Assembly (NCBI GenBank): GCA_017483465.1 | Contig: JAFUWN010000068.1 | Span: forward strand, 1 to 34,689 | DNA from: Oscillospiraceae bacterium | GTDB taxonomy: Bacteria; Bacillota; Clostridia; Oscillospirales; Ruminococcaceae | Direction of reading: 5' to 3' | Length of the DNA: 34,689 nucleotides | Shown: positions 10-15,994 of the stretch, in pieces | How the letters are laid out: the number at the start of each line of letters is the position of its first letter | Position numbering within the stretch: position 1 is the first letter of the stretch | Program-made: the position numbers and the translations under genes | Notes under the pieces: generated by a model | Told to the model about the DNA's origin: nothing | Database searches by the model: none | Seen by the model: the letters and a program-made list of their open reading frames with translations, nothing else

Positions 10-390
10 TTGACTTGTTTTCTCATCCTCCCGGAACTATTCTTCTGCCCTGGAATGAATCCTAATCTCTCGCCGTATGATTCGGCGAGATTTTTTGCTA
101 TCTGGGACGCATTTTATTTTACGCTTACGATTGAGCAACTTAAAGTCGAGATTCAGCCAAACGCTCTGTCAATGAAACTGAATGTCAATGCAAGCAAGCT
201 GTACCATAAATATTATATCTGGTACACCAACAAACGCACACACAAGGGCAGAATGATTCAGCTCCGCTATGATGTCAATCATCCGATTATGATTCAGCCG
301 ACTACACCTGTGAGCGAAATAACTGATAGTTCGCTCTCGTCTGACGAAATCACACCAATGGAAGAATCTGACAGCGATTCTGATGCGTGA
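10..390 (+). CDS. Uncertain hypothetical ORF at the left edge of the mobile element
   Basis: This open frame of up to 126 codons has an acidic Ser/Asp/Glu-rich tail. I do not recognise a domain. The first 27 codons cover a canonical terminator hairpin (68-96), so translation from position 10 is doubtful. A later in-frame ATG at 172 would give 72 residues. The central part, rich in Tyr, Lys and Arg (around YHKYYIWYTNK), looks more protein-like than the start. It lies just upstream of the iteron/oriT region and MobV gene, so an accessory plasmid or element protein is possible. It could equally be the end of a degraded gene or non-coding. Confidence 0.25.
   Translation: MTCFLILPELFFCPGMNPNLSPYDSARFFAIWDAFYFTLTIEQLKVEIQPNALSMKLNVNASKLYHKYYIWYTNKRTHKGRMIQLRYDVNHPIMIQPTTPVSEITDSSLSSDEITPMEESDSDSDA
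68..96 (+). terminator. Rho-independent terminator
   Basis: A perfect 8-bp stem, TCTCGCCG (68-75) with CGGCGAGA (83-90), has a 7-nt loop and is followed at once by six T. It should end a transcript entering from left of the window. Confidence 0.8.
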
Positions 391-462
391 CGCACCGTGA
401 CGGTCGTGACGCTGCTTTTGAGGTCACGAAAAGACCGTCACCATCGACACACATCGTCACGC
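385..462. repeat. Iteron-like cluster of CGTGAC motifs in both orientations
   Basis: CGTGACG/C motifs occur on the plus strand at 386, 396 and 405 (spacing 10 and 9 bp). The inverse GTCACG/CGTCAC occurs at 423, 436 and 455. Six copies in under 80 bp just upstream of a relaxase gene suggest a protein-binding array such as a replication origin or transfer-origin accessory site. Function is inferred from arrangement only. Confidence 0.5.
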
Positions 463-471
463 TAAAGTAAG

Positions 472-652
472 TTTTAACCTCAGTCGTTAAAAGGGAGTGC
501 AGAGGGAACGGCTGCCGCCATGTACTTGTGATAGATGCCCTCCGTGGCAGATGTCACAAGTACTATGGCGTTACAATCGGCAATTATGCCGTTTGTAAAT
601 CCGGAGTCCTCTCTGGTTTTCGGCTTTGCGATGTCCCTATCGTTCAAAGCCG
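472..652. other. Probable oriT / relaxase leader region with nested inverted repeats
   Basis: Several inverted repeats stand in series before the MobV gene: TTTTAAC (472-478) with GTTAAAA (486-492); a 16/17-bp arm pair 516-531 and 554-570 with a one-base bulge and a small inner hairpin TGCC/GGCA; CGGCA (579-583) with TGCCG (587-591); and CGGCTTTG (621-628) with CAAAGCCG (645-652), which encloses CGAT/ATCG. MobV oriTs lie immediately upstream of mob and contain inverted repeats next to nic, so this is the natural oriT candidate. The nic site cannot be named from sequence alone. Confidence 0.5.
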
Positions 653-691
653 ATTATTAAAAATTTAGTTCTTATGATAGGAGAGAGTTAT

Positions 692-1867
692 TTGAAAGAA
701 AAGAGAATATCATTCAGTCAGGGGCATGGTTCGCTGTCCCACAACAACAGAGAGTTCAGAGCCAATAATGTTGATGCAAGCCGAACCTGTAACAACATCA
801 CATTCATCAGCCAGCCGATTGCTGAAGCTTATGAACAGCTTTTCGGTGAATCTACAAGGCGATATAATGCCCGTCAGAAAAGAAATGACCGGAAAATTCA
901 GGGGAGTTACTATGAACATCTGTTTCATTGCAAGCCGTCCAATTCAGTGGTCACTGCTTCTGATAAGCGGAACAGTTTTTATGAAGATGTCATGCAGATT
1001 GGTAAAAAGGAAGATTCTGGAATTGGCACGGAAAATGCCGAACTTGTCGCAGAGTGTCTGAAAGAGTACATGAATGGGTTTCAGGCAAGAAATCCGAATT
1101 TCTATGTTTTCAATGCCGTTCTGCACATGGATGAAGCAACTCCGCACCTGCATATTGATTATATTCCGGTCGGTCATTATTCCAGAGGTCAGGACACACA
1201 AAATGGAATTGCTCAGGCACTCAAAGAAATGGGGTTCGGTATTGGGAAAGATGCCATTGCCAGATGGAGAGCCAGAGAAATTGAGATTATCAATCAGATT
1301 TGCCGTGAACATGGAATTGAGCCGTTACCGCCTGAAACGTCTAGAGGTACACTCGAAATTCCGGAATACAAAGAACAAATTCACAAGACTGAGCAACTGA
1401 AAAAAGAAAATGAACAGGCAGAAACTCAACTCGCTGAAATCAGGAGTGAACTTGAACAGAGTGCCAAAAAGAAACGGAAAATCAAGACAATTGATGAAGT
1501 CAAAACTGGTAAAACTTTGACCGGAAAAGTTGTCCTCAGCAGAGAAGATTATGACGAAATTTCGGGACTTGCCAAAAAACAGGTTGCGACTGAAAAACAT
1601 GAAACCAAAGAGAAAAAACTCACTGAGGCACTCAAACAGAAAGATTCCCAGATTGCACAGCTCACCAGTGAAAATGCCGAACTCAAGGCGAAACTCAGTC
1701 CGAAAATGGGATTCATGTCAAGGGAACAGCTCAAAGCCTCTGCCAAAGATGCTGAACAGCGGAATTATAAGCGTGAAAACCAACAATTACGAGCGTTTAT
1801 CGAAGATATGGGACTTTCTTTTCAGTTAAGCCACTATTTACATCATCATAATGGAGATTTGGAATAA
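692..1867 (+). CDS. MobV-family relaxase (Pre/Mob, plasmid recombination enzyme)
   Basis: Nicks one DNA strand at oriT and starts conjugative mobilisation of the element. The N-terminal half has the MobV signature: a SQGHGSLSHNNREF motif, then NVDASRT, and the metal-binding HMDEATPHLHIDYIPV motif (HxDE..PHxH) about 150 residues in. The C-terminal half is charged and heptad-like (Lys/Glu/Gln-rich), consistent with the coiled coil seen in this family. I chose the TTG at 692 because AGGAGAG stands at 679-685 with proper spacing and the signature begins within ten residues; longer starts (ATG 674 or 626) would run through the hairpin region and lack an RBS. The protein is then about 391 residues, normal for MobV. 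Transcription probably ends at the hairpin at 1883-1920. The gene marks the region as a mobilisable element that needs a helper conjugation system. Confidence 0.9.
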   Translation: MKEKRISFSQGHGSLSHNNREFRANNVDASRTCNNITFISQPIAEAYEQLFGESTRRYNARQKRNDRKIQGSYYEHLFHCKPSNSVVTASDKRNSFYEDVMQIGKKEDSGIGTENAELVAECLKEYMNGFQARNPNFYVFNAVLHMDEATPHLHIDYIPVGHYSRGQDTQNGIAQALKEMGFGIGKDAIARWRAREIEIINQICREHGIEPLPPETSRGTLEIPEYKEQIHKTEQLKKENEQAETQLAEIRSELEQSAKKKRKIKTIDEVKTGKTLTGKVVLSREDYDEISGLAKKQVATEKHETKEKKLTEALKQKDSQIAQLTSENAELKAKLSPKMGFMSREQLKASAKDAEQRNYKRENQQLRAFIEDMGLSFQLSHYLHHHNGDLE

Positions 1868-1882
1868 TTATCCAGAAACAAC

Positions 1883-1924
1883 AACTCCAAAGGCTTCTCA
1901 AATCAGAGGTCTTTGGAGTTATTT
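1883..1924 (+). terminator. Terminator after the relaxase gene
   Basis: A 10-bp perfect inverted repeat, AACTCCAAAG (1883-1892) with CTTTGGAGTT (1911-1920), is followed by ATTTTGAT. The hairpin sits between convergent genes and may serve both strands. Confidence 0.65.
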
Positions 1925-1945
1925 TGATAATTCAGGAATGTAATA

Positions 1946-2653
1946 TCAATATATTGCTCCTAACATTTTCTGCTCTATTCGCAAGGTTACGAGTAAATAA
2001 TAAAGGTCATCAGCTTCAGACAATTTATTTTCATCAATAGCATCTATTTTTCTATTCCACTCTTCCAACTTTGAGAGCATACTCATATAATCGCTCATCA
2101 TATCCATTAAATTCCCTGATTCAGTATATTTTTTCATGAAGGCAATATATCCATCATAAAATGCTTCGTAGGCATCCATTGTTTCCTTAAATTCAGGAGT
2201 TACAAGCGAATAATCGCCATTTTCAATTGCTTGTTTTATTTCATCAGCAGACTGCGTGCTTATTTCGGGAATTTCAGATACCTCATCGGTTTGTTCCTCC
2301 GAAATTACTTCGGAAATTATTGTTTCAGGCATAGTAGTGGTCGTTGTTTCAGTTTCATAAGTTTCAGATTCAGTTTCTGATATGATAATACTTGAATTTT
2401 CATTATAATAACTGCGGTTCTCCGGAATACGATTTCCACCACTGTTTTGATTGAAAAGTGCTAAGACAAGGTATACAAGCCAAGCGACAGAAATAATCCC
2501 ACAACGGAGTTTATTGGTCAAAGTATTATTTCGTAATATAAGCACTGTAAGAGGTATAGGAAAAATAAGTATCCAACCCAGTACCCAAATCCAGACATGT
2601 TTTTTCTGCGGTTTTCCACCATAATGGGACTTTGTCTCATTTATGCTCTCCAT
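1946..2653 (-). CDS. Membrane protein with acidic/Thr linker and C-terminal helical domain
   Basis: The 235-residue protein begins with a short basic N-terminus and two hydrophobic segments (about residues 19-40 and 52-68). A Glu/Ser/Thr-rich linker follows (about 80-130), then a soluble Tyr/Met/Glu-rich domain (about 140-235). The last domain has the look of small Firmicute domains such as DUF6591 (EFKETMDAYEAFYDGY pattern), but this is from memory and unsure. Start ATG has AGGAGGAAAA just upstream. It lies in the same orientation as the 66-residue membrane protein upstream (2740-2940) and probably shares its promoter. Function unknown; cargo of the mobile element by position. Confidence 0.7.
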   Translation of the reverse strand: MESINETKSHYGGKPQKKHVWIWVLGWILIFPIPLTVLILRNNTLTNKLRCGIISVAWLVYLVLALFNQNSGGNRIPENRSYYNENSSIIISETESETYETETTTTTMPETIISEVISEEQTDEVSEIPEISTQSADEIKQAIENGDYSLVTPEFKETMDAYEAFYDGYIAFMKKYTESGNLMDMMSDYMSMLSKLEEWNRKIDAIDENKLSEADDLYYLLVTLRIEQKMLGAIY

Positions 2654-2675
2654 AGATTTTCCTCCTAAAAATTGG

Positions 2676-2704
2676 TTGACGTGCAGATACTTTTGTGGTA
2701 TAAT
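2676..2704 (+). promoter_or_regulatory. Orphan sigma-A-type promoter pointing right
   Basis: TTGACG (2676-2681), a 17-bp spacer and TATAAT (2699-2704) form a near-consensus promoter on the plus strand. The next genes on both sides are on the minus strand, so a transcript would run antisense to the 2740-2940 gene. Confidence 0.6.
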
Positions 2705-2739
2705 TGAAAAGGAAGTTAATCAATCCAACAAAATTCTCA

Positions 2740-2940
2740 TTACTGATATTTATGAATCCAATAATTGGTTAAGTTTGGTGCATATTTGAGAGCAGTTACC
2801 ATTACTAAAGCCCAGCAAATATATTTTACAATAGAAACCACATTTTCCTCAGATACATGAACACTAAGATTGCCTCTTTTTAGTGCCTCGCTTAAATTTT
2901 CCGCAATCTTCATGAGCTTTTCTACAAATTTATTTTCCAT
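2740..2940 (-). CDS. Small membrane protein, divergent from the XRE regulator
   Basis: The 66-residue protein has an amphipathic charged N-terminal half and one hydrophobic segment (about residues 38-55, around VSIVKYICWALVMVTAL), then a short polar tail. The start is supported by AGGAGGG eight bases upstream and a consensus promoter (TTGACA/TATAAT, minus strand). I do not recognise the family. A small membrane protein next to an XRE repressor could be a toxin, a holin-like protein or an accessory membrane factor; nothing in the sequence decides between these. Confidence 0.65.
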   Translation of the reverse strand: MENKFVEKLMKIAENLSEALKRGNLSVHVSEENVVSIVKYICWALVMVTALKYAPNLTNYWIHKYQ

Positions 2941-2985
2941 AATTCATACCCTCCTGAAATGTATGATTTGTTTGTGTGTATTTCT

Positions 2986-3014
2986 ATTATATATCATCAT
3001 TTCGGAAATGTCAA
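2986..3014 (-). promoter_or_regulatory. Consensus promoter of the small membrane protein gene
   Basis: Read on the minus strand: TTGACA (3014-3009), a 17-bp spacer and TATAAT (2991-2986). This is a perfect sigma-A match. Its -35 touches a near-palindrome at 3013-3040 (AAGTAA ... TTACTT), a plausible operator for the XRE protein. Confidence 0.75.
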
Positions 3015-3040
3015 GTAATTTTAAAAATAATAATTTACTT
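3013..3040. promoter_or_regulatory. Candidate XRE operator
   Basis: AAGTAA (3013-3018) and TTACTT (3035-3040) form an AT-rich near-palindrome between the divergent genes. It overlaps the -35 of the minus-strand promoter and precedes the RBS of the regulator gene. Assignment by position and symmetry only. Confidence 0.35.
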
Positions 3041-3062
3041 TTTAGGTAAGGTGAAATTGAAT

Positions 3063-3704
3063 ATGCAGTATTCTTCAGAAATAATTGGTAAAAATATAAG
3101 GATAGAACGAAAAAAGCTATGTTATTCGCAAGAAAAACTTGGACAGAAAATTGGCATTACTGGAAAACAAATTTCAATTTATGAAAAAGGGAAAATTATC
3201 CCTCCTCTTGATATACTATTGAGACTATGCGAAATATTCGGCTGTGAACTTGGCTATCTTCTCGGAGAAAGTAGCTATGCAGAGGGAACGAAACTCCTTA
3301 CTGCTATTTCAAACTATACTGGTTTATCCTCAAAGGCACTCAAGCAAATCGTCAAAATTACAGGTCAAACAAGAGATTGTATTCATTGGGGATATCATTC
3401 TGATGAATATCGTGCTGTGTTAAATAAACTGCTTACATCTAAATATTTTATTGAATTTATTGAAACAATGAAAAAGTTGGACGATGTATATTCTAAACGA
3501 AAAGAGGAGATGCAGAAAATTGACCAATCCTTTCCTGAAATTACTGATAAAATTCGTGAATATATAGGAAGTCATTTCGAAAGTTTAATTGACCAAAAAT
3601 ATTCTATTGATACAGATTTTGAATACAATATGAAAGTTTACCGTTTTGATTTGCAAGAAAAGTTCATACTTTTGCTAAATGATTTGTATAAGACGGATGA
3701 ATGA
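3063..3704 (+). CDS. XRE-family helix-turn-helix transcriptional regulator
   Basis: DNA-binding regulator of about 213 residues. Residues about 8-62 form a classic HTH_3/Cro-CI domain: IGKNIRIERKKLCYSQEKLG, then the turn and recognition helix around GITGKQISIYEKGK and the PPLDILLRLCEIF segment. The remaining 150 residues are helical and not recognised; they probably mediate oligomerisation or sensing. I chose the ATG at 3063 (AGGTAAGGTG at 3044-3053) because longer starts add residues not seen before an HTH_3 domain; a TTG at 3057 is also possible. Divergent from the small membrane protein, whose strong promoter it may repress through the near-palindrome at 3013-3040. Confidence 0.85.
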   Translation: MQYSSEIIGKNIRIERKKLCYSQEKLGQKIGITGKQISIYEKGKIIPPLDILLRLCEIFGCELGYLLGESSYAEGTKLLTAISNYTGLSSKALKQIVKITGQTRDCIHWGYHSDEYRAVLNKLLTSKYFIEFIETMKKLDDVYSKRKEEMQKIDQSFPEITDKIREYIGSHFESLIDQKYSIDTDFEYNMKVYRFDLQEKFILLLNDLYKTDE

Positions 3705-3778
3705 TTATTTCGATTTTTTTGGCAACACAATGGCAACAAAAAATCAGGTAGTCCAAATCTGATAGATAACACGAATCA

Positions 3779-3856
3779 TAGAAATACCACAAGCAATATT
3801 TCTTAACTGAATCTGTTTAAGGTGACAGTTTAAGGAGCGAGTGGGAATAAAAAACA
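3779..3856. repeat. Direct repeat copy 1 (about 80 bp)
   Basis: This copy is about 88% identical by eye to 6219-6296, same orientation. It contains two GTTTAAGG/AGTTTAAGG words and GGAGCGA. Most of the differences are transitions. The two copies bracket the 4086-6017 gene with its promoter. Confidence 0.7.
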
Positions 3857-3859
3857 AGA

Positions 3860-3893
3860 TTCCAGAAATGCAGTCAAATCGGCATTTCTGGAA
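3860..3893. other. Perfect 12-bp inverted repeat
   Basis: TTCCAGAAATGC (3860-3871) and GCATTTCTGGAA (3882-3893) flank a 10-base loop. No T-run follows on either strand. It could be an attachment-site-like or RNA hairpin element next to direct repeat copy 1. Confidence 0.5.
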
Positions 3894-4044
3894 CATCAAA
3901 ACCAATTCTGATAACAGGAAGTAACTGATAATTATTCTTCGTCAACAGTGGGTGTGGGGCTATCCTGCCATTCTTTTGACGGTTGATGTTTACCGCAGTC
4001 GTCAGTAGTCTGCGGTCAGTTGAGCTTTCATTCTGTATGTTTGA

Positions 4045-4078
4045 CCTTGCTGATTTTACTATCAGCAAGGCCTTTTTT
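4045..4078 (+). terminator. Terminator, plus strand
   Basis: A 10-bp perfect stem, CCTTGCTGAT (4045-4054) with ATCAGCAAGG (4061-4070), is followed by a T-run at 4073-4078. It lies just beyond the 3' end of the minus-strand membrane-protein gene and points against it. The stretch 3894-4044 before it contains a further hairpin (ACCGCAG 3992-3998 with CTGCGGT 4010-4016) and no convincing gene, so it may end a short structured RNA. Confidence 0.7.
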
Positions 4079-4085
4079 ATGTTTT

Positions 4086-6017
4086 TCATGCTTTATCAGC
4101 AGTCTTGTTATTGTGTAAGTAATAGGCTAATATGGCAGACATTGAGTAAACGATTGGGAATGCATATCTTGGGTGCTCCTGAATAACAGGTGCTGCAACT
4201 ACGATACCAGCACTTAGCAGAAGCGGGAACATAGCAAGCAGTGCACGCCATGATTTCTTATTTATCGCAAACAAGATCAGGAACAGCAGGGCTATACAGT
4301 AAGGTGCCGGATGAGAGAACATTCCGATGACCGGCAGAGAGAAACAGCTTTTATAAAGACCTCTGATGATCATTTTAGCTTCCTGAAGCCCTTCGACTTC
4401 GGAAATTCCCAAGTCACCATTGACTGTACCGGTGAAAAATCCGCCGATTCCTTCAGGAACCGTTTCTGTATAGATTACATCGTAACCGCCATCGTTCTCC
4501 ACAAAGGGATAGAGCAGATAGTAGTTCTGATTCATTGTAGCCTCGACATATACTTCCGGATGCTTCAGGAACATCTTAAACCAGACTCCCAGGTATCTGG
4601 TGAAATCTTTAGTGGTTGAGTCATTTTTAAAGGTGTTCTTTACAGGGTCGGCAAACCTCGGGTCGTAGATAACAGGCAGGGCATCGTATTCAATCAAAGC
4701 ACGAATGGCCTCCGCCTCCTCATCAGTGACCTCGTCACCGTATTTGGAAACGTAGCGTGCAGTCTGCTGGAATGGCAGCGACATAGCCTCACGGATACCG
4801 AATTGCTCAACATTGTATGTCTTTATTATTGCTGATGATATCAGATTTGCAGTCACGACAGGTATCAGCAGACAGAGCAGCGGTCTGATAAGCGGCTTTA
4901 TGAAATTCTTCTTATCATATTTTCCCGCAGCAGACAGGAAGTATATCAGAAGGACTATAATAGTCGGATAAAGAACGTATTTTCCGTTGTTTCGAGCGAG
5001 CATTGTTCCGATAACTGATACGGCTAAAAGGAGTATGTGTTTAAAGTCCTTGAAATAATCGTCTGTTTTTTCCAGCATACATATAAGTTCAAGAACAAAG
5101 AGCAGGAAGAATACCGAGTAAAAAGTGTCCTTTATTTCTAATACGATATAATCTGTATAGAAAGGCACCAGAACCATTGCTGCAAAGGACATTATCCTCA
5201 GCCATTTGGGCGAACGCCATTTTTTCATCAAAGTAAGGCTGTAAGCCATTATCAGAGCTGCTGTGAGAGTTTGAAGTATTATCGAAATGTAGACACCTGC
5301 ATTGACGTGCCCCATTTTCAGTCCAAGTTTTGTAAACAGTCCCAGAAAGACTGTATGTGCAGGGGGCTGATGAGTGGTAAAGCCTATCTTTTCATAGTAC
5401 ATACACAGCTGATACCATGCATCATAGCAGATATAGCCAGGATAGGCGATTATCAGATGAGGAAGCCAGCAGATCATTATGGCAAAAAAAGAAAACCAGA
5501 ACGGATGCTTGTGGTAGAACTGTGACAGTTTTCCGTGAGGCTCTGTGTTAGTGTCAGACTGATTTTCCAGAAAAAAGAACATGAGCTGTCCAAGCTCATA
5601 GATCAGATAGGTCGATCCTGCAAAATAGCAGATCGACTTTACTATCTGCCCCGCACTGCTGCTCCAAAAATCCAAGGTATTATTGATGCGGAAGCTGACT
5701 CCCATAAGCCACACTAACGCTGTCAGAAAGCTCAGCGGAAGCAGGAAACGGGGCGGCTTGCGGCTTTCCTTAGTACGCTGCACCATTAGTCCAAGACCCA
5801 TAAGACATCCGAAAAGCAGTGTGGAATTAACGCTTGTCCCTTGCAGACTGTTACGGAAATTCCATACGATCTCTGTTAAGGCGTTTACCTTTTGTTCGTC
5901 AGGCAGCTCAGGCATGGAAAAGTTCATGCTCAGTGCCAAAGATCCACAAAAAGAAAAAAAGATAATTGCTGCCAATTTCAATTGCGTTCCGGACTGCTTA
6001 TTTGTTTCGATACTCAA
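4086..6017 (-). CDS. Large polytopic membrane protein, probable GT-C-type glycosyltransferase (DUF6020-like)
   Basis: The 643-residue protein has roughly 11-13 hydrophobic segments spread over its length. One loop, about residues 180-225, carries YPGYICYDAWYQ and THQPPAHT. Acidic residues in an early extracytoplasmic loop followed by His-rich motifs resemble GT-C lipid-linked sugar transferases, and the overall pattern resembles the DUF6020 family found with polysaccharide genes. A long soluble loop around residues 420-560 precedes the last membrane segments. Substrate unknown. The start is a TTG at 6017 behind AAAGGACGG; the next in-frame ATG (residue 31) is inside the first membrane segment. 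It has its own promoter (6146-6118) and stands alone between two direct repeats, suggesting it came in as a cargo unit. Confidence 0.75.
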   Translation of the reverse strand: MSIETNKQSGTQLKLAAIIFFSFCGSLALSMNFSMPELPDEQKVNALTEIVWNFRNSLQGTSVNSTLLFGCLMGLGLMVQRTKESRKPPRFLLPLSFLTALVWLMGVSFRINNTLDFWSSSAGQIVKSICYFAGSTYLIYELGQLMFFFLENQSDTNTEPHGKLSQFYHKHPFWFSFFAIMICWLPHLIIAYPGYICYDAWYQLCMYYEKIGFTTHQPPAHTVFLGLFTKLGLKMGHVNAGVYISIILQTLTAALIMAYSLTLMKKWRSPKWLRIMSFAAMVLVPFYTDYIVLEIKDTFYSVFFLLFVLELICMLEKTDDYFKDFKHILLLAVSVIGTMLARNNGKYVLYPTIIVLLIYFLSAAGKYDKKNFIKPLIRPLLCLLIPVVTANLISSAIIKTYNVEQFGIREAMSLPFQQTARYVSKYGDEVTDEEAEAIRALIEYDALPVIYDPRFADPVKNTFKNDSTTKDFTRYLGVWFKMFLKHPEVYVEATMNQNYYLLYPFVENDGGYDVIYTETVPEGIGGFFTGTVNGDLGISEVEGLQEAKMIIRGLYKSCFSLPVIGMFSHPAPYCIALLFLILFAINKKSWRALLAMFPLLLSAGIVVAAPVIQEHPRYAFPIVYSMSAILAYYLHNNKTADKA

Positions 6018-6117
6018 TTTATTTTCCGTCCTTTCTTACAAACAAGAGTAATAGTGATAATACTTGTTACAGCCGCATTATCAGTGAACTGGCCAAGTAC
6101 CCTCATTTTCAGCATCA

Positions 6118-6146
6118 ATTATAGCATACCCTGGATGAAAAGTCAA
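6118..6146 (-). promoter_or_regulatory. Promoter of the membrane-protein gene
   Basis: Minus strand: TTGACT (6146-6141), a 17-bp spacer and TATAAT (6123-6118). This gives a 5' leader of about 95 bases before the TTG start. Confidence 0.75.
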
Positions 6147-6218
6147 TAGCGGTTATATATTTTTAGTTACTCCATTTTTGTTAATCAAAGCACTTGAAAC
6201 CAGCTATATTTCATCTAA

Positions 6219-6296
6219 TAGAAATACTGCAAGCGATATTTTTTAACTAAATCTGTTTAAGATGATAGTTTAAGGAGCGAATGGGAATAAAAACAC
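6219..6296. repeat. Direct repeat copy 2 (about 80 bp)
   Basis: Second copy of the repeat at 3779-3856, same orientation. It lies between the membrane-protein promoter and the helicase-operon promoter. No open frame is shared by both copies over the whole length. Confidence 0.7.
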
Positions 6297-6337
6297 AAGC
6301 ATAAATTTCTGTTATTCTGATAAACACTATTTTTTAA

Positions 6338-6366
6338 TTGACTATTTTGAAAAAAAGTGGTATAAT
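6338..6366 (+). promoter_or_regulatory. Promoter of the helicase operon
   Basis: TTGACT (6338-6343), a 17-bp spacer and TATAAT (6361-6366), preceded by GTGG. The leader to the first ATG is about 95 bases and contains ACCAGA/TCTGGT complementarity. Confidence 0.8.
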
Positions 6367-6465
6367 ATAAACATAATTACCAGATATTTATAACCAGTAT
6401 TATTATAATTTGTTTATTAATTTCTGGTTCTCTACTTAAATACGCAGAAAGGATTTATTATTATT

Positions 6466-9400
6466 ATGAAGCTAACAGTTTACAAAGGATTTCAGACTGA
6501 ATTTTTGTCAGCATTGAAAGAAAAACCACTTATTAATAATGAGATCAGCCAAAAAATTTCTGTTCTTAATTTTGATAAAGCTTACCGTAAAAAATTGGAT
6601 ATTGCACTGATTTCTCTTCAGGATGACGATGAAGTCTGGGCAACATACGAAGAATTTTCTTTAATAAAAAACCGTGTGGATGATGCCATTGAAGAAGATG
6701 GATTAGAATTAGTGATTATCAAAAATAATCTGTATCCGGATTACTATCCGATAGAATTTGAATTGCCGGATGATCTTGCTTCGGAAATTATTCCTATTCT
6801 GAACGGAGATTCCAATGCTGCTCCCGGTGATCTTTGTCAGCGTTTTTTACTGATATACAATACACTGGTAGATGTCAGCGGTTCTTTTTTCGGCAGTTTT
6901 TATAATTATGAATATGAATATGACCATACGGATAAAGTAAGTTTCAAAGATTATTATCCTACAGCTTTGGAGATTGATGATACACAGCAGCAAAGTGATT
7001 TTGATTTATTTATCACTGAAGATATAGATACTTACCTGAGAAATTTTGAACGTATCAAAAAAGCAAATCCCCGCATCATTGCTGTGAAATCTACAGGAGG
7101 CGACAGTGCGAAAAGAATAGAGAATTCTTTGAAAGCATACTGTCTGCTGCATAACATCCGGCTGATTTATTTTTTTGAAAAACTGCCGGAAGATATCACG
7201 CTTGAAAACGAACTGCTTTCCATTGCTCAAAATGATATAAAGCTCAAAAACTTTCATGATTTCAGGAAAATAAAATTTTATAAATCTCCTGATATGAGCA
7301 AAGAAGTAATAGAGCTTTCTCAGGCTCAGATTATACAGGAAATCATCCATCAGGCGGAGCGTTCCTACGATCCGGAAGAAGGCTATGCTTTCAGAGATAT
7401 TTTCATTACAGCCTCAACCGGTGCCGGAAAATCTGTCATGTTTCAGATTCCGGCGGTATATCTTGCGAAGAAATATCATAAACTCACAATTATTATTGAA
7501 CCGGTCAAGGCACTGATGCAGGATCAGAAAGAAAAGCTCAATAACAATGGATTCATGCGGGTAGAGACATTCAATTCTGATCTGATTTCACAGGTGGAAA
7601 AAGAAGCCGTCCTGAACAGAATCAAAAGCGGTGATGTCGATCTGCTGTATTTAAGTCCTGAAACTTTATTATCCTATTCTATTGAAACGATTATCGGTGA
7701 TCGTGACATTGGACTTCTCATTGTGGATGAAGCACATATTGTCACGACATGGGGTGTAGGATTCCGGCCTGATTACTGGTATCTGGGCAGTTATATCAAC
7801 AGACTGAGAAATCAGATTCAGACATCCAGAGGCCTTAAAAGAAAAACATATCATTTCCCGATATGTGCATTTACCGCCACAGCTGTCAACACCGGCATCG
7901 ATGATTCTGTCAGTGATACTATCACAAGTTTATACATGGAAAACCCTGTCAAATATCTGGGATATGTGAAGCGGAATGATATCAGTTTTGAGATTGTTCA
8001 TAAAAACACGGCGAAGAAACTTCCTAAAAATGATTATGAAGCGGCAAAAACAAAAGATCTTGATTCCCGTATTGCTCAGTGGCTGGATAACAATGAAAAG
8101 ACTATCGTATATTTCCCATATGCGACCTTAGCCGGTGAAGCTTCCAAAGGACAAAAAGGATTTGCAGGAATTACGGTTGATAAACGAATCGGCACATATA
8201 CAGGCAGAAATATCAACGAAGTGAGTACAGAAGCTTTTAATAACTATAAAAAGACTGTCTTTGAAGATTTCCGGAAAGGAACCAAGCCTGTTATGTTTGC
8301 TACCAAAGCATTCGGAATGGGTGTAGATGTTGATGATGTCAGCAATGTCTATCATTATGCTGTCACAGGAAATCTTTGCGACTATGTTCAGGAAATAGGC
8401 AGGGCAGCAAGAAAAGAAAATATGACCGGAAAGGCAATCATTGATTATTATTATAATGACATGATGTTTATCAATACTCTTTTCGGTATGTCCCAGATCA
8501 GACCATACCAGATCAAACAGGTGCTTGCAGGTATTTACAATACTTATCAGAGTAAAAATAATGCCCGTAATTTCCTGATCTCTCCCAGTTCTTTCACATA
8601 TATTTTCAAAGGCAGAAATGAAGATGAGTGTATCAATAAATTAAAAACCTGTCTTTTAATGATCGAAAAAGATTTTGGGGATAAATATACGTTCAGAGCT
8701 ATCATCTCACGCCCCCAGAGTGTATTTACCAAAGCATATATCTGCATATCCAAAGAGCATGAAAACATGGTCTTGTCTTCCAGATACGGCAAATATATGA
8801 AATTTGTCGAAAAAGGAAGAGACAAGGAGCTTCAGGAAGACGGAACCCGCTGCAGCGATGTGGGGGATATCTACGCAATTGACCTAAAAAGCATCTGGGA
8901 AGAATGCAATCCCAATATCTCATTCCCCCAGTTTAAATACTGGTATTTCAATACAAATTCAAAAGCAAAAGACAGAGTGGAAATTATGCCGTCCATCCGT
9001 GAGCATATCTTTCCCAGACAGCGTGTTACTGTTGAAGCACGGAAAGATCTGCTGCTGTCCGAACTGAGAGAACGCATTCTTGATGATTTTGAATATATTG
9101 CAGATACGCTCTACACAAACAAACGGAATCAGTATTTTACTACTGAAGAATTTGCTATGCTGATGAAAGACAGATACGGCATGACCAAGGCAAGAATTAT
9201 AGCCTATTCTTTATTTGACCTGGTTGATTCTACAGGCAAATGTGTGAAAAACAGAACTAACGATGCTAACGAAACAACCTATATACTTTCAAACGGCAAT
9301 CTGAAAGAACTGATGCGGCAGGCAATTATTAAATCACGCATTATCCGTGAGATTAACAGATCAGCAAACGATTCTGTTTATTCAGGCTATATCAAACTTG

Positions 9401-10056
9401 TAGCCGAGGACAGTTCCAGCATTGCTCTGAAATTATTGTCTGTATTTGATTATATCACATATGAAATTGCAGGCGGTGAAGAACCTGAAATCTTTATCCG
9501 TATGAATGACCCGAATAAGATTAAAAATATTGTGCTCGGCAATACTTTTTATTCAAACAAGTATGTCACGAAAGCAAAGCAGAAACATGAAAGAGATGTG
9601 GCTGTTCTGCTCAAGTTTTTCAATGATTTGAAAACCGACGAAGAACGCTGGAATTATATAGAAGAATATTTTCTTGGCTATGATGTTCTCAAAAACACAG
9701 AAATAAACAATACACCCGTTTTTGTCAAAATGAGCAGTGCAATTGATAAACAGCGTTCTTATAGTACAAACAGTCTGCTTTCCTGGAATAAAATTAAAAC
9801 TTTCTTTGATGATGGAGATCATGGTATTATTGACAAGCTGGCTGCTTGCAATATTGCAATACCGGAATATCTTGGAACTGTAATAAAAAAATCAGATGAG
9901 GGTAAAGATATTTTAATGTCCTGGCCTTCCAAAAATGTCATAATCTGTAAAGCCGAAACCAGTGACAGAAGACTTGAATATTTTTCCAATAAAGGATGGC
10001 ATGCCTATCGGTCATATGAAATTGATTACGAAAAAATAAAAGGAGAATTACAGTAA
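6466..10056 (+). CDS. Giant RecQ-like DEAH helicase with unrecognised N- and C-terminal regions
   Basis: An SF2 helicase of 1196 residues. The core spans about residues 300-690: Walker A GAGKS (319-323), SPETLL, DEAH (421-424), FTATA, YTGRN, FGMGVD (from 616) and QEIGRAARKE (642-651), where the last is the RecQ motif VI with its arginine finger. Ordinary RecQ is about 600 residues, begins close to its helicase core and ends in zinc and HRDC domains. Here about 300 residues precede the core (acidic, with a DFDLFITEDIDTYL stretch) and about 500 follow it with no zinc or HRDC pattern visible; a YEIAGGEEPEIFIRMNDP motif lies near residue 1000. Stop and the next start are one base apart (TAATATG), so it is translationally coupled to the NERD/UvrD gene. 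The pair stands next to mobile DNA. I infer a DNA-processing or anti-phage role; it is not housekeeping recQ. Confidence 0.88.
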   Translation: MKLTVYKGFQTEFLSALKEKPLINNEISQKISVLNFDKAYRKKLDIALISLQDDDEVWATYEEFSLIKNRVDDAIEEDGLELVIIKNNLYPDYYPIEFELPDDLASEIIPILNGDSNAAPGDLCQRFLLIYNTLVDVSGSFFGSFYNYEYEYDHTDKVSFKDYYPTALEIDDTQQQSDFDLFITEDIDTYLRNFERIKKANPRIIAVKSTGGDSAKRIENSLKAYCLLHNIRLIYFFEKLPEDITLENELLSIAQNDIKLKNFHDFRKIKFYKSPDMSKEVIELSQAQIIQEIIHQAERSYDPEEGYAFRDIFITASTGAGKSVMFQIPAVYLAKKYHKLTIIIEPVKALMQDQKEKLNNNGFMRVETFNSDLISQVEKEAVLNRIKSGDVDLLYLSPETLLSYSIETIIGDRDIGLLIVDEAHIVTTWGVGFRPDYWYLGSYINRLRNQIQTSRGLKRKTYHFPICAFTATAVNTGIDDSVSDTITSLYMENPVKYLGYVKRNDISFEIVHKNTAKKLPKNDYEAAKTKDLDSRIAQWLDNNEKTIVYFPYATLAGEASKGQKGFAGITVDKRIGTYTGRNINEVSTEAFNNYKKTVFEDFRKGTKPVMFATKAFGMGVDVDDVSNVYHYAVTGNLCDYVQEIGRAARKENMTGKAIIDYYYNDMMFINTLFGMSQIRPYQIKQVLAGIYNTYQSKNNARNFLISPSSFTYIFKGRNEDECINKLKTCLLMIEKDFGDKYTFRAIISRPQSVFTKAYICISKEHENMVLSSRYGKYMKFVEKGRDKELQEDGTRCSDVGDIYAIDLKSIWEECNPNISFPQFKYWYFNTNSKAKDRVEIMPSIREHIFPRQRVTVEARKDLLLSELRERILDDFEYIADTLYTNKRNQYFTTEEFAMLMKDRYGMTKARIIAYSLFDLVDSTGKCVKNRTNDANETTYILSNGNLKELMRQAIIKSRIIREINRSANDSVYSGYIKLVAEDSSSIALKLLSVFDYITYEIAGGEEPEIFIRMNDPNKIKNIVLGNTFYSNKYVTKAKQKHERDVAVLLKFFNDLKTDEERWNYIEEYFLGYDVLKNTEINNTPVFVKMSSAIDKQRSYSTNSLLSWNKIKTFFDDGDHGIIDKLAACNIAIPEYLGTVIKKSDEGKDILMSWPSKNVIICKAETSDRRLEYFSNKGWHAYRSYEIDYEKIKGELQ

Positions 10057-10057
10057 T

Positions 10058-11779
10058 ATGGCATATATTTATCCGCTGAAAGAAGAGTTAAAAGATGTTC
10101 CCTATTCTGAACGCATAGTTTATGATTTACTTAAAGATCTGGAAAAAGATTTTATAATATTTCATTCCGTGCAATGGGTAAAAAAAGGAAGAAGATGGAA
10201 ATCCACATGGAAAGAAAATGATTTTCTGATTCTGAATCCTAAACTTGGAGCACTCGTTCTGGAAATAAAAGGCGGAGATATTATTTATCAGGACGGTGTG
10301 TTTCATCAGATCAATACAGAAACAAAAGAAGTGGCTGTTTTAAGTCCGACAAAGAAAAACGACCCTTTTTCACAAGCCATTGACGGTGTATATCATTACC
10401 GCCGGCTGTTAGATCAAATTTCTCCTGACCTGAGCGATCGCTTTCCGATAGAACCGGCTGTCTGGTTTTCTACCTGTGATATTAAAGAAAAACGCAGAAG
10501 TTTCCCCTTGCAATATCGGGAAGCCTCGGGGGCTGTTCTGGGAAATGAAGATTTTTCCAAACATGGAAAGGCAATCCATGACATTTTTGATTTTTATGCT
10601 TCGCAGGGCAAAACAGCTGTCACAGAAGAAGAATATGCTAAAATAATAGATGCCATTGCTCAGGATTTTAAACTGATTTCTGCTCCCGGTGTCAAAAAAG
10701 GCGAGTTGGATTATGCCTTTTTAAAACTGACGAATGAACAGACCGGTCTTCTTGATTATATATCTGAACAAAAAAATGCAACAATTCAGGGCGTTGCCGG
10801 AACCGGAAAAACATTGATTGCCAAAGAAGCAGCACGAAGACTGGGGGCTGAAGGCAGAAAAGTGCTCTTTCTTTGTTTTAACAGATTTCTTTTTTCGCAT
10901 TTGCAGCATATGTATCCTTATAAAAACGTCACATATTATAATATTCATACTTTTATTTCCAGATACAGACCAGGAGAAGACACGTCTTCCGGTGAGAAAC
11001 GGGTAGCTGAACTGCAAAAAATAGACTGGGATTTTCTGGACTATGATGATATTATTATTGATGAAGGACAAGACTTCTTCAATGATGAAATTATCTATTT
11101 CAAAGAATATATGATACTGAAAGACGGTCATTTCTGGGTATTCTATGATAAAAATCAGCTGCTTACCACACAGGAAGTTCCGGAATGGATTGAAAAATCA
11201 GAATGCCGGCTGCTGCTCACGAAAAATTGCAGAAATACTTATCAGATTGCACTGACTTCCTATAATGTCATTGACATTGAAATGGACCCAAAAGTTATGA
11301 TGATAAACGGAGACCCTACATCTATAAGTTTTGTAAACGGCGAACCCGTTTCAAAACTTGCCAGATTGTTAAAACAGCTTACCAATGCGGAATCCGGCTA
11401 TGAATATTCTGATATTGTAATTCTTTCCCTGAAAACAGAAAATAATTCTATTCTTCAAAATACTGTTAGAATAGCCGGCATTCCGATCATGCATGAAAAA
11501 AACAATTCTTCCATATTATTTACGACTGCAAGCAAATTCAAAGGGCTTGAAAGCCGTATTGTAATTATCATTGATATAGACGAAAGCTGTTTTACAGACG
11601 AAAACAAAAAGCGATTGTTCTATGTTGCCTGTTCCCGTGCTACGCAGAAACTGGCTCTGTTCATCAATGGTGATAACAAAAAAATCGAAGCAATTGCCAA
11701 TGCTATCGACAATGAAAACCGTTTTGCCGCTAAAGGCTGTATTGCAATGAAAACAAAAGCAGACCCGCTGGAATTATAA
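10058..11779 (+). CDS. NERD-domain nuclease fused to UvrD/Rep-like SF1 helicase
   Basis: The 573-residue protein has two parts. The N-terminal NERD domain (nuclease-related, PD-(D/E)xK type) shows the expected residues D55 and E69-I-K71 in NDFLIL ... LEIKGG. From about residue 225 an SF1 helicase follows: GVAGTGKT (245-252), DEGQD Walker B (335-339), LTKNCRNTYQIA, a TASKFKGLESRIVI motif and YVACSRATQKL (motif VI). Compact size suggests reduced accessory subdomains. AGGAG at 10041-10045 lies inside the end of the upstream gene, one base separates the genes, and a strong terminator follows at 11813, so this is a closed two-gene operon. NERD-helicase proteins occur in DNA repair and defence settings. 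Here the partner supplies 3'-5' RecQ-type unwinding and this protein probably supplies cleavage plus a second motor (inference). Confidence 0.88.
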   Translation: MAYIYPLKEELKDVPYSERIVYDLLKDLEKDFIIFHSVQWVKKGRRWKSTWKENDFLILNPKLGALVLEIKGGDIIYQDGVFHQINTETKEVAVLSPTKKNDPFSQAIDGVYHYRRLLDQISPDLSDRFPIEPAVWFSTCDIKEKRRSFPLQYREASGAVLGNEDFSKHGKAIHDIFDFYASQGKTAVTEEEYAKIIDAIAQDFKLISAPGVKKGELDYAFLKLTNEQTGLLDYISEQKNATIQGVAGTGKTLIAKEAARRLGAEGRKVLFLCFNRFLFSHLQHMYPYKNVTYYNIHTFISRYRPGEDTSSGEKRVAELQKIDWDFLDYDDIIIDEGQDFFNDEIIYFKEYMILKDGHFWVFYDKNQLLTTQEVPEWIEKSECRLLLTKNCRNTYQIALTSYNVIDIEMDPKVMMINGDPTSISFVNGEPVSKLARLLKQLTNAESGYEYSDIVILSLKTENNSILQNTVRIAGIPIMHEKNNSSILFTTASKFKGLESRIVIIIDIDESCFTDENKKRLFYVACSRATQKLALFINGDNKKIEAIANAIDNENRFAAKGCIAMKTKADPLEL

Positions 11780-11812
11780 AATAAAAATTTTTATTTATGA
11801 TATTTGAATTTA

Positions 11813-11843
11813 AACGGCTGTACTTCCAGGTACAGTCGTTTTT
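11813..11843 (+). terminator. Terminator of the helicase operon
   Basis: An 11-bp stem with one G-U pair, AACGGCTGTAC (11813-11823) with GTACAGTCGTT (11830-11840), has a 6-base loop and is followed by T residues. Confidence 0.85.
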
Positions 11844-11873
11844 AATGCAAGCAGATTTTGAATGATACAGTAC

Positions 11874-15265: not shown

Positions 15266-15994
15266 ATGAAAATAAAACATATGATTACTGCATTCCTTTC
15301 TGTTGCAGTATGTGGAATTTCTGCAATTTCTTTGGTAACTTCTGCCGCAGATCAGTATCAGGATAAAAGAGACGAGGTAATTATGCTTGTGAATGAACAG
15401 CGTACCGCACTGGGAAAATCTGAACTTTATGAAGCAGAATTGCTCAATCAGGCCGCACAGCTTCGGGCAGAAGAAATTATTGATAATTTTTCTCATATAC
15501 GTCCTGACGGCAGAGCAGGCTATACTGCTTTTACAGATCTAGGCGGTGTGTATATGGCTGTTGGTGAAAATATTGCCTATGGCTATCCGACAGAAGCTGA
15601 TGTCATGAACGGCTGGATGAATTCTGACGGTCATCGTGGAAATATCCTGAATGATGCCTATCATGCAATGGGGGTCGGTGTTGCTGCCAAAGGAAATGTG
15701 CTCTACTGGGTGCAGCTGTTCAGCGATGGCAAAAATCTGCCGCCGTTGTATTCTAAAGGAAATATCAACAGAGATAATAAAACAGATTCTACAGATGCCT
15801 CTGCAATTTTGATAGATGCCGCTCAGAAAGGTGCCGGAATGTCCGGCATTCTGAACAGAATGCAGATCAGTTTTGCAGACCTGAACCGCAATCAGCTGGC
15901 AGATTCTGATGATGCTTCTCTGATTCTGCGTTATGCTGCCTATGCCGGAACAGGCGGAACAGAAAGTATTGAGAGCTTCTGCGGTTTGTCCTGA
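15266..15994 (+). CDS. Secreted CAP/SCP-domain protein with dockerin; intact CAP site
   Basis: The 242-residue protein has a signal peptide (to about residue 27), a CAP domain (about 32-160) and a dockerin (about 166-242, GNINRDNKTDSTDASAIL and LNRNQLADSDDASLILRYAA). The CAP site is canonical: NFSHIRPDGR, GENIAYGY, WMNSDGHRGNIL and GVGVA, with both histidines present. There is no long linker. The dockerin is the same class as that of the upstream gene, ending in GTGGTESIESF (GTGGTQTIEEYF upstream). RBS GGGGGG before ATG. Bacterial CAP proteins are secreted with varied roles (surface binding, possible protease or lipid binding); the exact function is not known. Confidence 0.9.
   Translation: MKIKHMITAFLSVAVCGISAISLVTSAADQYQDKRDEVIMLVNEQRTALGKSELYEAELLNQAAQLRAEEIIDNFSHIRPDGRAGYTAFTDLGGVYMAVGENIAYGYPTEADVMNGWMNSDGHRGNILNDAYHAMGVGVAAKGNVLYWVQLFSDGKNLPPLYSKGNINRDNKTDSTDASAILIDAAQKGAGMSGILNRMQISFADLNRNQLADSDDASLILRYAAYAGTGGTESIESFCGLS

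Follow-up and report, generated by a model that had tools for sequence, protein, structure and literature searches.

A RecQ-like helicase and a NERD nuclease–SF1 helicase encoded by adjacent genes in an Oscillospiraceae bacterium: a candidate two-protein anti-invader system

Organization of the locus

A stretch of 34,689 nt on contig JAFUWN010000068.1 of an Oscillospiraceae bacterium, hereafter called the window, carries two adjoining genes for a large RecQ-like helicase (P1) and a nuclease–helicase (P2). This arrangement raises the question of whether the two proteins act together and whether they act against invading DNA. The locus is laid out as follows.

6338..6366, + strand: putative sigma-70-like promoter, TTGACT-17-TATAAT with extended −10 (TG before the −10); 11 of 12 consensus bases, by consensus match only
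6446..6453, + strand: RBS-like AGAAAGGA of P1, by sequence inspection
6466..10056, + strand: P1, 1196-aa RecQ-like SF2 helicase (ORF, profile and fold matches)
10038..10045, + strand: RBS-like AAAAGGAG of P2, within the 3′ end of P1, by sequence inspection
10058..11779, + strand: P2, 573-aa NERD nuclease–SF1 helicase (ORF, profile and fold matches)
11812..11841, + strand: intrinsic terminator with a 13-bp stem and a T run behind it (folding and shuffles)

Both reading frames are intact and are separated by a single base, as the initial annotation had stated. It had also given the pair a promoter and a terminator of its own. The terminator held up (dG −17.5 kcal/mol, z −5.3; 0 of 200 shuffles equally stable) and was absent from the output of the consensus scan that listed the promoter; the promoter is suggestive only, because two 11/12 matches occur within 6 kb.

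The placement of the pair between mobile DNA and housekeeping genes agreed with Pfam analysis. On the left are a Mob_Pre gene (4.6 kb upstream), DUF6591, an HTH gene, and DUF6020, the last of which adjoins P1 on the side opposite P2; a dihydrouridine synthase gene (dus) is on the right. The seven flanking genes scanned by Pfam did not have the look of a defense island. Homology to the nearest dus relative begins at position 11865, directly past the terminator, and this was the only boundary that could be placed when same-genus genomes were searched for an empty site: 8 other genomes among 10 drawn contained dus, in rearranged neighborhoods. An apparent second copy of the operon on contig C101, with identical P1 residues 1–480, was rejected; since this contig matches the window at 99.83% identity across 7570 b and stops within P1, we took it for redundant sequence in a mixed assembly.

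P1 contains a RecQ-like motor

The regions of P1 are given below, with the limits of the core set by the analyst.

6466..7260, + strand: N-terminal region, residues 1–265, predicted alpha/beta
7318..8550, + strand: RecQ-type motor core, residues ~285–695 (K322, D421, QxxGRxxR 642–649, Pfam, fold)
8551..9690, + strand: conserved C-terminal region, residues 696–1075, lacking the RecQ-like four-Cys spacing
9691..10053, + strand: C-terminal tail, residues 1076–1196, observed here exclusively in the P2-linked branch; proposed to dock P2

P1 carries a Walker A motif (GAGKS, including K322), DEAH at residues 421–424, and QEIGRAAR at 642–649, and the Pfam DEAD and Helicase_C domains fall within residues 306 to 650. 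A PDB profile search and fold comparison both led to RecQ, RECQL5, WRN, and BLM; in these match lists, as in those for P2, a missing family is not thereby excluded. With these three motifs on an SF2 core of RecQ fold, P1 is RecQ-like; its score lies below the curated cut-off of NCBIfam recQ_fam (152.4 vs 219.8 bits). About 785 residues lie outside the core, close to the 800 first estimated. RecQ-type motors have 3′–5′ polarity as a family, and the RecQ zinc-binding domain consists of four closely spaced cysteines downstream of the core. This spacing was not found in residues 650–800 of P1, where C722, C729, C760, and C796 are 7, 31, and 36 residues apart, and C722 and C729 are not conserved in distant relatives.

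The N-terminal region gave no Pfam match and only chance-level matches in a PDB sequence search. PADLOC model C3a193 ("poss. alt. Cas3") matched residues 53–1073 (2.6e-157) and ended short of the tail, for which PDB matches were also at chance level and no relatives were found in plasmids. Two further ORFs in the genome resemble the P1 core, and P1 is therefore probably not the housekeeping RecQ.

P2 joins a NERD nuclease to a second helicase

P2 had been described as a NERD nuclease fold (D55, E69, K71) joined to an SF1 helicase, and both parts were recovered.

10058..10672, + strand: NERD (PD-(D/E)XK) nuclease region, D55/E69/K71 (Pfam, alignment, predicted model)
10727..11695, + strand: SF1 (UvrD/SLFN-like) helicase region (PADLOC, Pfam, fold matches)

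Pfam analysis placed NERD at residues 17–137 (PF08378, 30.6 bits vs a cut-off of 22.1), with the D...ExK set complete, and UvrD_C_2 at residues 488–534. D55, E69, and K71 are invariant across 11 aligned sequences, and the NERD and Walker residues are likewise invariant in the alignments of P1 and P2 relatives. PADLOC model RTasNERD-Hel matched residues 1–540 (1.3e-52), and C3a187 (NERD + UvrD) was also matched. Foldseek comparison, performed with a weak predicted model (pLDDT 69.9, pTM 0.39), ranked SLFN, AdnA, Rep, UvrD, and PcrA above Dna2 (rank 12, E 8.1e-6).

Comparison with named systems

The initial annotation could not match the pair to a named system, and none was matched here; the P1 and P2 families, however, are each already PADLOC candidates, so that novelty appears to be limited to their combination. 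No named system joining a RecQ motor with a NERD–SF1 protein was found in the literature searched, most subscription papers lying outside its scope, and no PADLOC model of the pair was seen: C3a193, RTasNERD-Hel, and C3a187 are single-protein models. The C3a names presumably go back to the study of Shah et al. (2019). That study is in the reference list of PMC9252829.

The closest likeness in logic is to Hachiman (HamAB) and AbpAB, two-gene defenses that combine a helicase with a nuclease (PMC12278908). HamAB couples a sensor helicase with an effector nuclease and is activated by DNA damage; HamB, like AbpB, is Ski2-like, and HamA is a DUF1837 protein (PMC12278908). Here, in contrast, a RecQ-like motor is combined with a NERD nuclease that is fused to a second motor. 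The searches agreed with the reported absence of Hachiman and Gabija partners: neither DUF1837 nor HamB was among the matches listed for P1, P2, and their flanks, and no GajA (ATPase–TOPRIM) match was given by Pfam in the seven flanking genes; P2 showed partial GajB matches only. P2 also differs from Gabija (GajAB) in that the NERD nuclease sits on the helicase chain itself. A review passage lists NERD for both Nhi and Mokosh type I and names no RecQ-like partner (PMC10952713). Nhi matched P2 at 3.7e-11, in the helicase part only (residues 224–541).

P1 shares a RecQ-like helicase core with DpdF of Dpd and PsyrT of PsyrTA. The best matches to these proteins were limited to P1 residues ~310–690, and P1 scored below the NCBIfam DpdF cut-off (120.6 vs 550 bits). 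BLM/Sgs1–Dna2 and AddAB/RecBCD are end-resection machines. The pair resembles them in architecture, a RecQ motor with a PD-(D/E)XK–SF1 protein; homology to Dna2 is not claimed.

Distribution and coupling of the pair

The pair is not part of a fixed core gene set. P1 was present in 8 of 297 genomes of the same family, its own included, and in none of the four same-genus genomes listed, and P2 in 4 of 394 genomes of the same order (its own, one at 65%, and two at 34–36%). Some pair carriers come from rumen or rabbit samples, according to their sequence records. A contig scan with two peptide patterns gave 15 loci, which are a sample and not a census. Duplicates were counted once (L032 = L042; L026 and L084 = L027); L050 (27%, partial), L016/L017, and the longer stretches L024/L025 (1588–1644-aa proteins with the core alone in common) were dropped, and the tree omits L010, L097, and L100 (split ORFs or near copy).

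Among the 16 close P1 relatives (59–74% identity), P2 lies immediately 3′ of P1 in 11, uninterrupted in 10 and with assembly Ns and a frame break in L035. As to the others, L037 has a P2 remnant, L041 has no P2, one locus is cut at a contig edge, and L044 and L046 have neither P2 nor the C-terminal tail of P1. The putative link between tail and P2 rests on these two joint absences; L037 and L041 retain the tail without an intact P2. In each of the 11 measured loci, which include the window but not L040, the spacing between the genes is +1 or −1 base, with start codons picked by the analyst. The identities of P1 and P2 co-vary (r = 0.91 for 45 pairs drawn from 10 loci, a value reached in 0 of 5000 permutations), which is equally expected from shared descent alone. 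The dN/dS ratios of ~0.18 for P1 and ~0.17 for P2, from the single pair L040/L042, point to purifying selection on both. Across scattered genomes of the Clostridia type, the two genes are passed on as one unit.

L040 and L042 have a common 5992-bp block of 95.7% identity, composed of the pair with flanks of ~500 bp on the upstream and ~190 bp on the downstream side and containing no recombinase. Apart from this block, the two ~23.6-kb stretches matched each other over 139 and 84 bp only, in both cases against the block end. This is one case of the pair being shared as a block in otherwise different surroundings. Searches for P1 relatives gave 233 plasmid records, 6 with at least 80% coverage, and 25 phage records, none of which reached 80%; the 20 phage matches listed cover ~28–30%, the core only. 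A plasmid DNA search with the operon and dus gave short matches only, in three records.

Defense genes and mobile DNA near the pair

The initial annotation had looked to defense islands. A strong known defense gene was found within 10 kb in 5 of the 16 close P1 loci, in agreement with this idea, but the flanks in the window form no clear island. Four of the five loci carry P2, which corresponds to 4 of the 11 P2-bearing loci (three independent); the fifth, L041, has P1 alone and a type IV restriction enzyme (2.6e-210). The neighbors in L040 include Drt4 (6.8e-201), an AbiU-like protein (1.3e-32), and a partial GajA (9.2e-28). L047 has a CBASS effector (2.9e-272), and in L039 a DpnII gene (7.2e-107) ends 40 bases ahead of P1; L048 was counted as a DpnII locus via 18 kb common to L039.

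PADLOC and Pfam were run on 134 of 139 neighbors (75 + 59; L027:2126 and L046:2663, 6824, 15613, and 21324 were omitted). The list of 139 excludes ORFs below 170 aa, edge ORFs, P1 and P2 matches, and the part of L048 common to L039. The two sets matched 144 PADLOC families for 75 proteins and 36 for 59 proteins, and a control of 77 proteins encoded near dus in eight genomes of the same genus matched nine (best 7.6e-40), but these counts overstate the contrast because one protein can match many related models and the control is one genus. Among the first 25 families listed, mad2, mad3, mad8, and AriA were matched in test and control alike. When 20 neighbor proteins were scanned singly with PADLOC (E limit 1e-20 in one run and 1e-12 in the other), those of L036, L037, L038, L042, L043, L046, L047, and L049 and one of two from L041 gave no match, and those of L044 gave partial GajB matches only.

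These surroundings bear on two alternatives. The pair could be an accessory repair or recombination module of mobile DNA, in which the RecQ protein and the nuclease–helicase process ends for integration or replication of the element. RecQ cores and SF1–nuclease proteins are classic end-processing enzymes, and helicase–nuclease pairs also occur in ordinary repair; two serine recombinase genes lie upstream of the pair in the IMG/VR contig L027, and Mob_Pre lies upstream in the window. We nevertheless consider this unlikely, given the defense genes near P2-bearing loci and the recombinase-free block of L040 and L042. Alternatively, P2 might be a DRT-type auxiliary, or P1 might assist type III CRISPR as a Cas3-like accessory, the two being neighbors without a joint function, as the PADLOC names and the Drt4 reverse transcriptase ~6.4 kb upstream of the pair in L040 could suggest. 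This is highly improbable: Pfam gave no reverse transcriptase match in the seven flanking genes of the window, the P1–P2 coupling is maintained, and a simple exact-repeat scan of 40 stretches gave matches only at window position 29260 and L010 position 17380, both tentatively judged not to be CRISPR arrays, the latter lying inside a replication-initiator ORF.

Proposed mechanism

The pair is best explained as one transferable two-protein helicase–nuclease anti-invader system, which we regard as probable. We infer a defensive role in which the RecQ-type motor of P1 would recognize abnormal DNA or open it, with free ends, gapped forks, and phage or plasmid replication intermediates as examples. 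The C-terminal tail of P1 would hold P2, whose NERD nuclease would degrade the opened DNA as its UvrD-like motor feeds it. Destruction may be confined to foreign DNA or extend to that of the host. In a Hachiman-like, abortive version, which is compatible with this explanation, P1 would sense DNA damage or phage replication and license P2 to break down the entire DNA of the cell, which would die together with the phage. The sensor–effector logic of HamAB, activated by DNA damage, makes such an outcome conceivable (PMC12278908), but P1 is RecQ-like rather than Ski2-like, and P2, with a motor of its own, would be expected to degrade DNA processively; we hold this version to be possible without favoring it. 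If protective, the pair would extend the known helicase–nuclease immune systems by a RecQ-based nuclease with two motors, in Clostridia-type bacteria.

Partner variation in the wider P1 family

Most of the wider P1 family lacks P2, and its other branches have a sigma-70-like neighbor or neither partner. A sigma-70-like neighbor was present in 9 of the 19 distant relatives examined, and P2 adjoined P1 in none of them. If the pair protects cells, the family would offer a natural experiment in which a single conserved motor has exchanged its partners (NERD–SF1, a sigma-70-like protein, or neither), and a general role of RecQ-like helicases in detecting abnormal phage DNA would become testable. 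Tentatively, the pair might even be an immune counterpart of BLM/Sgs1–Dna2, in which the RecQ-like protein is a shared sensor that hands strands to a tail-docked, exchangeable PD-(D/E)XK–SF1 protein; L044 and the sigma-70-like branch would then exemplify interchangeable partners.

The same variation could mean that P1 alone is the defense protein and P2 a dispensable add-on, since part of the distant relatives have the sigma-70-like neighbor, none of the 19 was seen with P2 beside P1, and L041 and L046 lack P2. This seems distinctly unlikely, as P2 appears to be under purifying selection (one pair) with invariant nuclease residues, and the P2-linked clade has a private P1 tail. Moreover, the P2-less locus L044 carries two ORFs immediately upstream of P1, one for an SF1-type helicase and the other small and exonuclease-like.

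Association of P1 with P2

The initial annotation had proposed that P1, a RecQ-like SF2 helicase, and P2, a NERD nuclease–SF1 helicase, form a candidate defence or DNA-processing operon. A genome_contigs scan with a two-sequence P1 alignment returned 16 loci, comprising 15 close relatives (L035–L049, 59–74% identity) and L050, a weak match that was left out of this group. With the viral contig L027 added, 16 close relatives were compared, and the pairing recurred, with P2 directly downstream of P1 in 11 of them. P2 was uninterrupted at L027, L036, L038, L039, L040, L042, L043, L047, L048, and L049, and carried assembly Ns and a frame break at L035. Only a P2 remnant of about 50 residues was found at L037; L041 encoded P1 with its C-terminal tail (residues 1076–1196) and no P2; L044 and L046 had neither tail nor P2; and L045 reached the contig edge inside the tail.

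At each of the 11 loci measured (the window included, L040 excluded), P1 and P2 were spaced at +1 or −1 base, given the start codons that we chose. Identities of P1 and P2 were strongly correlated (r = 0.91 for 45 pairs of 10 loci), and none of 5000 permutations was as high, as co-inheritance would give. The dN/dS ratios between L040 and L042 were about 0.18 for P1 and 0.17 for P2. These two loci have in common 5992 bp at 95.7% identity, consisting of the pair and short flanks, and their only further matches (139 and 84 bp) are both to the end of this block. L040 and L042 are not independent of each other, nor are L039 and L048, which are 99.2% identical over 18 kb. As annotated, the helicase–nuclease pair of P1 and P2 is real; it is also co-inherited and has been shared at least once.

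Distribution of P1 and P2

Both genes were sparsely distributed. P1 was matched at E ≤ 1e-40 in eight of 297 genomes of the same family, including the source genome; of the others, five matches were near full length (33–36% identity) and two covered the core only. The four same-genus genomes listed gave no match at this threshold. Across the phylum, nine of 398 genomes, again counting the source, matched at E ≤ 1e-80. P2 was matched in four of 394 genomes of the order: besides the source genome, these were the L042 record at 65% and two more at 34–36%. Neither gene was present in the stretches around dus, the dihydrouridine synthase gene to the right of the pair, in eight same-genus genomes. 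The source genome also has two further ORFs similar to the P1 core. Contig G000:C101 (L018, 7578 bases), which is 99.83% identical to window positions 336–7905 and terminates within P1, is probably redundant through strain mixture.

The wider P1 family

Nineteen distant P1 loci (L007–L010, L019–L023, L074, L075, and L096–L103) were examined, and no P2 was seen beside them, in whole stretches or within four ORFs on either side. A sigma-70-like neighbour was present in nine (L007, L009, L022, L023, L097, L098, L101, L102, and L103), and the four such neighbours scanned against PADLOC match MzaA. In a midpoint-rooted tree of 33 rows with long branches, the 17 window-type rows grouped together (100/100), one branch (100/100) separated eight sigma-70-partnered rows from the other labelled rows, and a third group (100/100) comprised six rows with neither partner found. 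The unlabelled L008 fell among the sigma-70-partnered rows and L075 beside them. The branch with the sigma-70-like partner is a candidate second system. Type I restriction genes were seen near the P1 relative and the sigma-70-like gene at L009 and L023.

Matches of distant relatives to P1 stop at residues 1071–1092, and the tail had no counterpart in the eight distant relatives aligned. Therefore, the tail appears to be confined to the P2-linked clade. Because its position in the tree is inside this clade and beside L036 (95/71, nested in a 100/100 group), L044 has most likely lost both tail and P2. Two ORFs (1454–3870) lie just upstream of its tail-less P1, at spacings of 11 and 29 bases. The SF1-type helicase ORF showed a partial GajB match and weak FBH1/PIF1 matches, and by eye its C-terminal end looks like a PD-(D/E)XK nuclease; the 184-aa ORF looks like a DEDD exonuclease, also by eye. 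These ORFs are a possible replacement partner, and this single case suggests, rather than proves, that P1 of this branch is partnered by an SF1-nuclease protein.

At L033 (569–10508), a 994-aa ORF precedes a 1727-aa DruE/YprA-like helicase, and a P2 relative (33–36%) follows after 5 bases. The helicase matched the DruE model at 3.8e-67, yet the same model finds matches in seven of 14 control genomes; PDB matches were also obtained. This locus is possibly a Druantia-like operon with a NERD-SF1 gene added.

Links to defence

When both proteins were searched against PADLOC, each matched a candidate defence model separately: P1 residues 53–1073 matched C3a193 "poss. alt. Cas3" (2.6e-157, among the best 25 of 26 families), and P2 residues 1–540 matched RTasNERD-Hel (1.3e-52). 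The DpdF, PsyrT, and GajB models matched the motor or part of it only. Each family had thus been suspected of defence beforehand, separately.

Known defence genes were found near several P1 loci. Drt4, a partly GajA-like protein, and an AbiU-like protein are encoded upstream of the pair at L040 (2026–9365), a CBASS effector lies about 6.5 kb downstream at L047, and DpnII ends 40 bases before P1 at L039, a stretch also carried by L048. At L041, where P1 stands without P2, a type IV restriction enzyme is encoded 2 kb upstream. In total, strong known defence genes lay no more than 10 kb away at five of 16 loci (four independent), and at four of the 11 with P2 (three independent). Individual scans covered just 20 neighbour proteins, of which 15 gave no match at the limits applied, so this count falls short of a full census. 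In batch scans, one set of 75 neighbour proteins matched 144 PADLOC families and a second set of 59 matched 36 (first 25 families listed), compared with nine for 77 control proteins of one genus (best E-value, 7.6e-40). Since such counts are swollen by related models, E-values are the better contrast.

Possible function and known systems

Taken together, the pair is most likely a candidate anti-invader system, unnamed and built of two families already under defence suspicion. In the simplest reading, P1 would detect or open abnormal DNA, which P2 would then degrade; we infer the tail docking, trigger, and target choice of the pair. By analogy, the arrangement may resemble that of the BLM/Sgs1–Dna2 and AddAB/RecBCD pathways. 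Dna2 ranked 12 on the P2 Foldseek list, below UvrD-, Rep-, and SLFN-type motors. Hachiman (PMC12278908) has the closest studied logic, with proteins that differ from P1 and P2, and TALON is a rare system of a YprA-like helicase with NERD (PMC12458937), whose helicase belongs to another family than P1. Consistent with the annotation, which had matched the pair to no named system, no name for a RecQ-like plus NERD-SF1 system was found in the accessible parts of the literature searched, including PMC12458937, PMC12839542, PMC10910872, PMC10952713, PMC9252829, and PMC10853773.

Repeats and mobile elements

Among the Pfam families listed, phage integrase was found in three of 75 neighbour proteins and resolvase in two of 75 and three of 59. 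A 133-bp repeat (89%) at L040, 7344–7476 (about 2 kb upstream of the 5992-bp block) and 15359–15490 (block end), may mark a recombination site. The DUF6020 gene (4086–6017), the left neighbour of P1, had no match at E ≤ 1e-60 in any of the ten other genomes searched from the genus, several of them incomplete. An 82-bp direct repeat, 89% identical, lies on either side of it (window 3778–3858 and 6218–6299) and occurs elsewhere in the source genome only on the redundant contig C101. A plasmid-borne P1 relative of Levilactobacillus brevis (L010, 7709–12072) is broken by an IS30-family transposase gene.
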